37,924 nucleotides of DNA from Candidatus Endomicrobium macrotermitis (GTDB lineage: Bacteria; Elusimicrobiota; Endomicrobiia; Endomicrobiales; Endomicrobiaceae), in the NCBI GenBank assembly GCA_031271405.1, contig JAISVT010000009.1, forward strand, positions 1 through 37,924, written 5' to 3'. Of this stretch, positions 13,451 through 29,197 are shown in pieces. The translations under genes and the position numbers were made by a program. Numbering within the stretch: position 1 is the stretch's first letter; every line of letters begins with the position of its first letter. Under the pieces are notes generated by a model. It worked only from the letters and a program-made list of their open reading frames with translations. It was not told the origin of the DNA and made no database searches.

Positions 13451-13518
13451 ACGTAAACTCCTTTGTATAAATTTCATATGCTGAATTTAAAATCCGATTT
13501 TAGCTGCAGAGTAAACAG

Positions 13519-13570
13519 AAAAGTTAAAGACAACAGCGGATTGTGCCGTATTTCAACTTTTAACTTTGCG
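13519..13570 (-). repeat. Dispersed repeat, copy A (TPR gene to ppdK gap)
   Basis: The minus strand holds GTTAAAAGTTGAAATACGGC followed by ACAATCCGCTGTTGTCTTTA. Copy B at 29137-29196 reads GTTAAAAGTGAAGATACGGC then AAACGGCGTTGTTTTT, and a third, more divergent copy lies inside tyrA. The similarity over about 45 nt is too long for chance. Copy A lies between the TPR gene and ppdK. Confidence 0.6.
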
Positions 13571-13591
13571 CTTTTTCATTTTTCGGCTATG

Positions 13592-28170: not shown

Positions 28171-29025
28171 TTATAACTGTGTTCTCAAGATTTCTTTTTT
28201 TACTTTAGCTTTATTTTTCAACACTTTTTTAAAAGCGTTGAGCTCTTTTATAAACGCGTCAAGGCGTTTGATTATATTTTCGCCGTTTGCGGCAAATATC
28301 GGAGCCCACATATCCGCGTTTGACGAAGCCACGCGCACCATGCTTTTAAACGATCCGGCGGTAATTTTATCGATTTCCGGATCCTTCCTTTTAGCGTCTT
28401 TATAAACTTTATTAAACGAAAAAGCTATGCAGTGGGTCAAATGGCTTGTCAAAGCCGCAAGTTCATCGTGCTTTTTTGCAGACATATTGATTATGTTTGC
28501 TCCCGCGTCTTTCCACATTTTTGCAATGATTTTTTCTTTCTGCGTAAATTTGCCGGTTATTATTACGTTCGCGCCCTTAAACATTTGCGCGTCAGCGGAA
28601 AAAATCCCTTTTTTCTCATTGCCCGCCATCGGATGAGAGCCTACAAAAGAAAGAGCGGAATTGACGGATTTTGTATTTTCACTCTTCACTCTCAACTCTT
28701 CAATTCGGCATTCTATAGAATGCTTCACGCTTCCCGTATCCGTAATAATTGTACTTTTATCAACTATTTCGGAAAGCTGCTTATAAATCGGCACTATTGT
28801 GTCCACAGGCGTGCATATAACAACAATACCGCATCCTTTTACGTCCTGTAAAGACAGAGAAACTTTGTCCGCCGCGCCGGTTTTAAGCGCGGTTTTCAAA
28901 GTTTCCCTTTTTCTTGATACACCTATTATATAGTATTTATTCCCTGCGGATTTGCTCTTTAAGGCAAACCCTAAAGAAGCGCCCATCTGCCCCAAACCTA
29001 TGATACCGACTTTTATTCTTTCCAT
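28171..29025 (-). CDS. tyrA: Prephenate dehydrogenase
   Basis: 284 residues. NAD(P)-dependent oxidative decarboxylation toward tyrosine. N-terminal Rossmann fold with GIIGLGQMGASLG (residues 7-19), TDTGSVK (95-101), catalytic-region SHPMAG (130-135) and the helical C-terminal dimer domain (AALTSHLTHCIAF). Between TDTGSVK and SHPMAG, residues about 106-126 (EELRVKSENTKSVNS) form an insertion encoded by a copy of the dispersed repeat seen between genes elsewhere. The ATG is preceded at once by an in-frame TAA and lacks a good Shine-Dalgarno (a GAGGGG lies 14 nt upstream). No ACT domain. Could also use arogenate. Confidence 0.94.
   Translation of the reverse strand: MERIKVGIIGLGQMGASLGFALKSKSAGNKYYIIGVSRKRETLKTALKTGAADKVSLSLQDVKGCGIVVICTPVDTIVPIYKQLSEIVDKSTIITDTGSVKHSIECRIEELRVKSENTKSVNSALSFVGSHPMAGNEKKGIFSADAQMFKGANVIITGKFTQKEKIIAKMWKDAGANIINMSAKKHDELAALTSHLTHCIAFSFNKVYKDAKRKDPEIDKITAGSFKSMVRVASSNADMWAPIFAANGENIIKRLDAFIKELNAFKKVLKNKAKVKKEILRTQL
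28649..28710 (-). repeat. Dispersed repeat, copy C, in frame inside tyrA
   Basis: The minus strand contains GAGTGAAGAGTGAAAATAC followed by AAAATCCGTCAATTCCGCTC. This is a diverged match to copies A and B (…GAAATACGGCACAATCCGC…), preserving the reading frame of tyrA. It encodes the insertion near residues 106-126. Confidence 0.5.
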
Positions 29026-29120
29026 TTGTTAAAATACTACCCCTCACCATCTTGCTTTGCTTGCCGGCATTGCCGACCCCCGGACGCTTACCGTCCCGCA
29101 TCCTTCGTCAGACGGCTCGA

Positions 29121-29139
29121 CTCTCCCGCAAGGGGCGAG
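29121..29139. repeat. Short palindrome CTCTCCCGCAAGGGGCGAG
   Basis: A GC-rich palindrome with a GCAA loop, resembling the CTCTCCCGCAAGGGGAGAG-type intergenic repeats found in many unrelated bacteria. It lies in the aroF/tyrA gap beside copy B of the dispersed repeat. Another hairpin (GCCGGCATTGCCGAC) is at about 29073-29087. Confidence 0.5.
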
Positions 29140-29196
29140 GAAAAACAACGCCGTTTGCCGTATCTTCACTTTTAACTCCCCGCTCTTCACTCTGCC
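29137..29196 (-). repeat. Dispersed repeat, copy B (aroF to tyrA gap)
   Basis: Minus strand: GGCAGAGTGAAGAGCGGGG, then AGTTAAAAGTGAAGATACGG, then CAAACGGCGTTGTTTTTCC. The central 40 nt match copy A at 13519-13570. The repeat begins at the aroF stop codon. Confidence 0.6.
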
Positions 29197-29197
29197 T

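Follow-up and report, generated by a model that had tools for sequence, protein, structure and literature searches.

The 37,924-nt stretch of DNA analysed here (the window; contig C47 of a 1.89-Mb genome of Candidatus Endomicrobium macrotermitis in 64 contigs, labelled G000) contains a tyrA gene with an in-frame insert, which is very probably a copy, in part decayed, of a small non-autonomous repeat found in Endomicrobium and a sister genus. The repeat was found to be dispersed through the genome, to be palindromic with common ends, to occur in frame within several genes and to be absent from the corresponding positions in relatives, while its mobility in trans, its neutral tolerance by the host and the turnover of its arms by slippage or exchange are inferred. 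A preliminary description had reported a repeat in two gene gaps and a diverged copy in frame within tyrA; this observation was confirmed, all three copies being real, and its interpretation was supported and widened, although actual movement is still an inference.

Copies of the repeat in the window

The following features were identified:

28171-29025, minus strand: tyrA, encoding a prephenate dehydrogenase of 284 amino acids, host of the insert (PF02153 and PF20463; best Foldseek hit A. aeolicus prephenate dehydrogenase 3ggp, TM 0.86)
28649-28705, minus strand: element copy in frame within tyrA, comprising left arm, core and right-arm remnant and reading RIEELRVKSENTKSVNSALS; absent from the E. 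proavitum, G049, G052 and g3 orthologues
28677-28697, minus strand: left arm of this copy, three heptamers AGTTGAG AGTGAAG AGTGAAA, with two overlapping matches of the genome-wide pattern
28665-28676, minus strand: element core ATACAAAATCCG following the left arm; a longer version, GATACGGCAAAGACAAAATCCGT, is present in the G050 tyrA insert
29050-29197, minus strand: element copy that follows immediately on the aroF stop codon and reads GGCAGAGTGAAG...AGTTAAAAGTGAAGATACGGC; a second repeat, ..CTCGCCCCTTGCGGGAG.., lies nested inside; heptamers at 29164-29177
13519-13572, minus strand: copy in a gene gap, both arms present, AAAGTTAAAAGTTGAAATACGGC...GTCTTTAACTTTT, forming a short hairpin (predicted stem 13519-13561, not better than shuffles, z -0.32)

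The repeat had been described as a core of about 45 nt, which held as far as its existence was concerned; what the three copies have in common is a 7-nt tandem unit, AGTKRAR, and a short core, ATACGGC..AATCCG, and not just the 45-nt core that was quoted. Similarly, the copy that had been placed at 29137-29196 is present and extends further, over about 29050-29197, where it fills most of the aroF-tyrA gap because of the second repeat nested within it. The exact 74-nt copy at 13499-13572 had only weak whole-length relatives when the genome was searched.

The tyrA insert is read on the minus strand as the codons CGA ATT GAA GAG TTG AGA GTG AAG AGT GAA AAT ACA AAA TCC GTC AAT TCC GCT CTT, and the reading frame is unbroken across it. 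The span from TD to HPM of TyrA is 39 residues long in this genome, compared with 25 in G049 and G052, 28 in E. proavitum and 32 in G004, so that residues are indeed added, with a net gain of 7-14 amino acids over insert-free relatives in place of the 10-20 estimated at the outset. In the AlphaFold2 model of TyrA (mean pLDDT 92) the insert extends helix 102-118 together with the subsequent loop, and precedes the strand leading to the conserved His131. The tyrA copy folded no better than shuffled sequences.

Heptamer arrays of three families were observed at the TyrA loop across five species: AGTGAAG arms with a common core in G000 and G050, TACTCACTACTCACTACTCACTGCTCACTGCC in both G045 and G048, and AATTACG units in G046. 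Orthologue comparison revealed no repeat insert at this loop in E. proavitum, G049, G052 or g3; as most aligned relatives lack it, the insertion is not shared by all TyrA orthologues of the phylum, the outcome that would have refuted the preliminary description. At the aroF-tyrA junction (29026-29197 in the window) five species have an element that begins at the stop codon of aroF, with differing arm families, other families than that of the window being found in G045, G046, G047 and G050 (L044, L045, L047, L064), while in relatives without heptamers (L048, L049, L066) aroF and tyrA abut and the junction is empty.

The tyrA gene of G048 (L046:124-948) was observed to look mosaic, its 5' part resembling that of G045, which belongs to another genus, and its 3' part that of G050, with the switch near the insert. 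The 5' parts of G045 and G048 are 88% alike over 147 nt and agree at 65-75% downstream of the insert, where G048 and G050 agree at 76-87%. Such a pattern suggests that the genera have recombined, the breakpoint lying close to the insert, although misassembly is possible, since the G048 assembly is a draft in which tyrA begins 124 bases from a contig end. Wholly independent ACTCACT insertion into the two genes was dropped as an explanation, the 5' parts being unusually alike.

Genome-wide distribution and structure of the repeat

The two-unit pattern AGTKRARAGTKRAR had 90 matches (about 61 sites) in the 1.89-Mb genome compared with 8 for the reversed pattern, and the dispersal first proposed from the window is therefore far beyond chance. 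Of the 61 heptamer sites, two were set aside because, judged from context, they resemble native codons: one in valS near C53:49571 and one in a UvrD-like gene on C37. The genome belongs to the same genus (g1) as Endomicrobium proavitum, in the family Endomicrobiaceae of the Elusimicrobiota. When heptamers were counted in 77 genomes of the family with the reversed pattern as control, AGTKRAR was clearly above control only in g1, in three of the five g4 genomes and in g5, and was at or near control level in 42 g3 genomes and in the g4 genomes G049 and G052. For E. proavitum the counts were 88 against 58; some genuine A-rich arrays, in the AAAGTGA register, also match the control, which makes the contrast conservative, notably in this species. 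A tree of five proteins joined g1 and g4 and placed G049 and G052 together inside g4 with low support (55), leaving unresolved whether the repeats were lost there or never present. A second heptamer family, AATTACR, was abundant in g1, G048 and G050, and a third, AGTGAGY, was rare.

Full copies were found to be imperfect palindromes consisting of an AACGGCA(G) end, a forward heptamer arm, a centre, a reverse arm and TGCCGTT (element ends TAACGGCAG...CTGCCGTTA), the palindromic full copies L020, L075 and L084 being roughly 85-100 nt long. Hairpin folding relative to shuffled sequences gave z values of -4.8, -6.8 and -6.8 for three full copies and -2.8 for a fourth, and one complete example of terminal inverted repeats was identified (AACGGCAGAG...CTCTGCCGTT). 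A reverse two-unit arm followed 12 of the 61 arrays within 160 nt and preceded none of them. The end AACGGCAG adjoined 13 of 61 AGTKRAR arrays when a match of at least 7 of 8 bases was required (0.07% at random), and AACGGC adjoined 10 of 27 AATTACR arrays when at least 5 of 6 bases had to match (0.7% at random), the same end flanking both families. The centre often contained other repeats, for example ..CTCGCCCCTTGCGGG.., and both arms or perfect ends were kept in a minority of arrays only; no target-site duplication was established, there being too few copies with both ends intact. Many copies lay immediately upstream of start codons or directly after stop codons. At the 3' ends of some genes of this genome (L081, L086, L028), heptamer copies seem to provide new C-terminal residues and the stop codon.

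In-frame copies in other conserved enzymes

A scan of the reading frames at each site (genes named by NCBIfam) identified in-frame copies in rsmA, mnmE, a gene for a FabF-like ketoacyl synthase, ispE and valS in addition to tyrA, while a 598-amino acid frame of unknown kind on C62, for which no orthologue comparison was made, is a further candidate host. Orthologues were compared by means of a chimeric query against 11 relatives followed by alignments. The segments were absent from G004, G044, G049, G052 and G057 wherever an orthologue was found, the loops of heptamer-poor relatives being clean, and repeat-derived segments were frequent at the same loops in G045, G046, G047, G048 and G050. The five repeat-bearing relatives include the PacBio-finished isolate E. 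proavitum, and some of the inserts belong to other heptamer families (AATTACG, ACTCACT). The lengths of the stretches concerned were as follows:

RsmA: 88 residues here, 118 in E. proavitum, then 65, 63 and 47; 22 in clean relatives (29 in G052 and G057)
MnmE: 82, 58, 52 and 43 residues, against 30-32
FabF-like: 108, 67, 56 and 49 residues, against 42
IspE: 75, 49 and 47 residues, against 39
ValRS: 81, 68, 64 and 61 residues, against 50

By hand count, and leaving this genome out, a repeat-like segment was present in about 22 of 29 gene copies of the five heptamer-rich relatives and in none of the heptamer-poor ones; as the six genes were picked because this genome bears a copy there, the rate is not unbiased. 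A second repeat, PSPLAGGSPRNNEDES.ARCERPGSEEKRGE, was nested within the heptamer element of rsmA, mnmE and the fabF-like gene of this genome (L078, L095). Two further observations concern the inserts themselves: that of the rRNA methyltransferase gene rsmA of E. proavitum (L142:333-1370) contains a tandem duplication, QSGKWKVESEINGKSKDKDEQQQSLKQVQGD then QSEKWKVESGINGKSKDKDEQQQSLKQVQGD, and IspE (L039) has a second extra segment at about residues 50-90, SGRNPGSPVIPEIHGRESAVNSIASLP, which is repeat-derived by appearance.

In the AlphaFold2 model of RsmA most of the enzyme folds confidently and residues 89-152 (pLDDT about 26-29) are predicted to be disordered; few aligned sequences cover the insert columns, which alone is enough to lower confidence there. 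A perfect AGTGAAG array has TGA in every frame within 21 nt, and the copies within genes have TGG, TTG, TTA or TGC where the perfect array has TGA. Within genes, AATTACG arrays run only in the direction that has no stop in any frame (ITNYELR), and the same is true of ACTCACT; stop-free copies and open orientations are to be expected if the copies are translated.

Origin of the inserts and alternative explanations

The dispersion, common ends, palindromy, nesting and empty sites in relatives fit a small non-autonomous mobile repeat. A full copy would consist of AACGGCA...TGCCGTT ends, an AGTKRAR arm, a reverse-complement arm and a variable centre, often with nested repeats. Insertions would go mostly between genes, and those within genes would survive where the frame was kept, no stop codon was introduced and the protein tolerated the loop, the surviving copies being translated as a helix extension or a disordered loop. 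The loops of TyrA, RsmA, MnmE, FabF-like, IspE and ValRS and the aroF-tyrA junction would then be recurrent sites at which the heptamer family varies by species, through repeated insertion, replacement of one repeat by another or recombination between lineages. Arm length was probably changed by slippage, and the copies within genes are most likely tolerated passengers. A broader proposal, put forward tentatively and with slightly less than even confidence, is that one mobile design, whose ends stay constant while its heptamer arms can be exchanged, has entered and re-entered the same essential-enzyme loops time and again in two genera. The loops would act as landing pads, and their repeat content would be replaced more quickly than the genes change, in part through recombination across genera.

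The heptamers might instead have arisen and expanded in place, without movement, by replication slippage in loops tolerant of length changes. Units of 7 nt are a common product of slippage in bacteria (PMC4679880) and the E. proavitum rsmA insert includes a tandem duplication, but simple slippage cannot make inverted arms, the heptamer families at a site match those dispersed in the genome, and the same core, ends and nested second repeat (PSPLAGGSPRNNEDES...) recur within a single genome in rsmA, mnmE and the fabF-like gene; this explanation is considered unlikely. Retention for a function, whether message stabilisation or separation by RNA hairpins or tuning of the enzymes by the loops, is about equally improbable. 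The position of many copies just before start codons or after stop codons would suit such a role, as would the strong hairpins of several copies, whereas family, length and content differ among species at one site, species free of heptamers live with empty sites and the RsmA insert is predicted to be disordered.

Far less credible is a naturally variable TyrA loop with only a chance resemblance to the intergenic repeat. Its length does vary in relatives free of repeats (TD to HPM, 25-32 residues), but three AGTKRAR units in a row in one gene are very improbable (about 33 bits), three heptamer families occupy the loop in five species and five other genes of the genome are alike, and the genome-wide counts and orthologue comparisons already contradict it. 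An artefact of draft assembly or binning, conceivable for a genome in 64 contigs, can be discounted to the same degree, as reading frames were intact in the genes examined and similar in-frame inserts in rsmA and mnmE are present in E. proavitum Rsa215, an isolate with a complete PacBio genome (PMC4505116). The preferred reading remains a copy of a mobile, non-autonomous repeat.

Comparison with known repeat systems

REP/REPIN sequences with their RAYT transposases are likewise short palindromes in many copies. A Y1/RAYT transposase was rejected as the mover of the Endomicrobium repeat, as its distribution does not track the repeats: Y1 transposases were present in G045, G048 and G050, with a single match (171-amino acid frame) in G000, but were missing from the repeat-bearing G046, G047 and G053, and no transposase tied to the repeat emerged from the distribution of Y1 across genomes. 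MITEs such as ERIC and RUP are also short and non-autonomous with terminal inverted repeats (here the AACGGCA(G) ends enriched beside arrays), and some of their copies lie in genes; unlike them, the Endomicrobium repeat has no identified target-site duplication or parental transposase, no search having been made for an insertion sequence with matching ends.

Heptanucleotide arrays of cyanobacteria, Beggiatoaceae and Bacteroidetes (e.g. TAACTGA) are mostly intergenic and often near start codons, their orientation within genes being limited by stops (PMC4679880). They share with the present repeat tandem 7-nt units at many places, but are mainly direct repeats, whereas the Endomicrobium heptamers are arranged as inverted arms in an element whose ends are defined and which occurs also inside conserved enzymes. 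Arrays of four or more AGTKRAR units were observed in at least 118 stretches from other phyla (L180-L297; Bacteroidales, Prevotella, Acidobacteria, Cyanobacteria, Akkermansia, Nitrospirae and others), many in long open frames and mostly in the orientation open in every frame, and heptamers within genes may be common; the AACGGCAG end was not found beside these arrays. A text search of the open literature, which does not extend to subscription papers, gave no mention of such repeats in Endomicrobia, nor did term searches of the family genome paper (PMC11257099).

The small palindromic repeats of Rickettsia and Wolbachia lie in intergenic positions and also, without breaking the frame, in protein genes that are conserved and mutually unrelated, where they are tolerated as extra peptide segments (PMC2229807, PMC10969869). 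The likeness to Rickettsia elements that had been suggested for tyrA was strengthened by at least five more in-frame copies in conserved enzymes and by the palindromic full copies, without membership of that family being demonstrated. In-frame copies in several unrelated conserved genes (here tyrA, rsmA, mnmE, fabF-like, ispE, valS), absent from orthologues, are common to both systems, and full Endomicrobium copies, though not the partial tyrA copy, conform in kind to the palindromic form with its length of about 105-146 bp, terminal inverted repeats and long stem-loop. An insert in RNase P RNA, reported for Rickettsia and not strictly defining, was found in none of six repeat-bearing species (337-349 nt, the range of most relatives), and tmRNA, matched in full in nine genomes, had no obvious insert in any of them, G000 and G046 giving no full-length match. 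The Endomicrobium repeat differs in its arms of tandem heptamers, in having several families with the same ends and a centre that is often another repeat, and in its host, an elusimicrobial lineage. By analogy it appears to work like the Rickettsia and Wolbachia palindromes with another architecture in another phylum; no homology has been demonstrated and kinship is not claimed.

Rickettsia and Wolbachia are obligate intracellular bacteria. The Elusimicrobiota case, which includes the cultured, free-living E. proavitum, indicates that in-frame invasion by palindromes arises in another phylum and that intracellular life is not needed for it. As the same loop is clean, once-invaded or differently invaded among related species, the family offers a ready set for testing the entry and cost of foreign peptide segments in essential enzymes.
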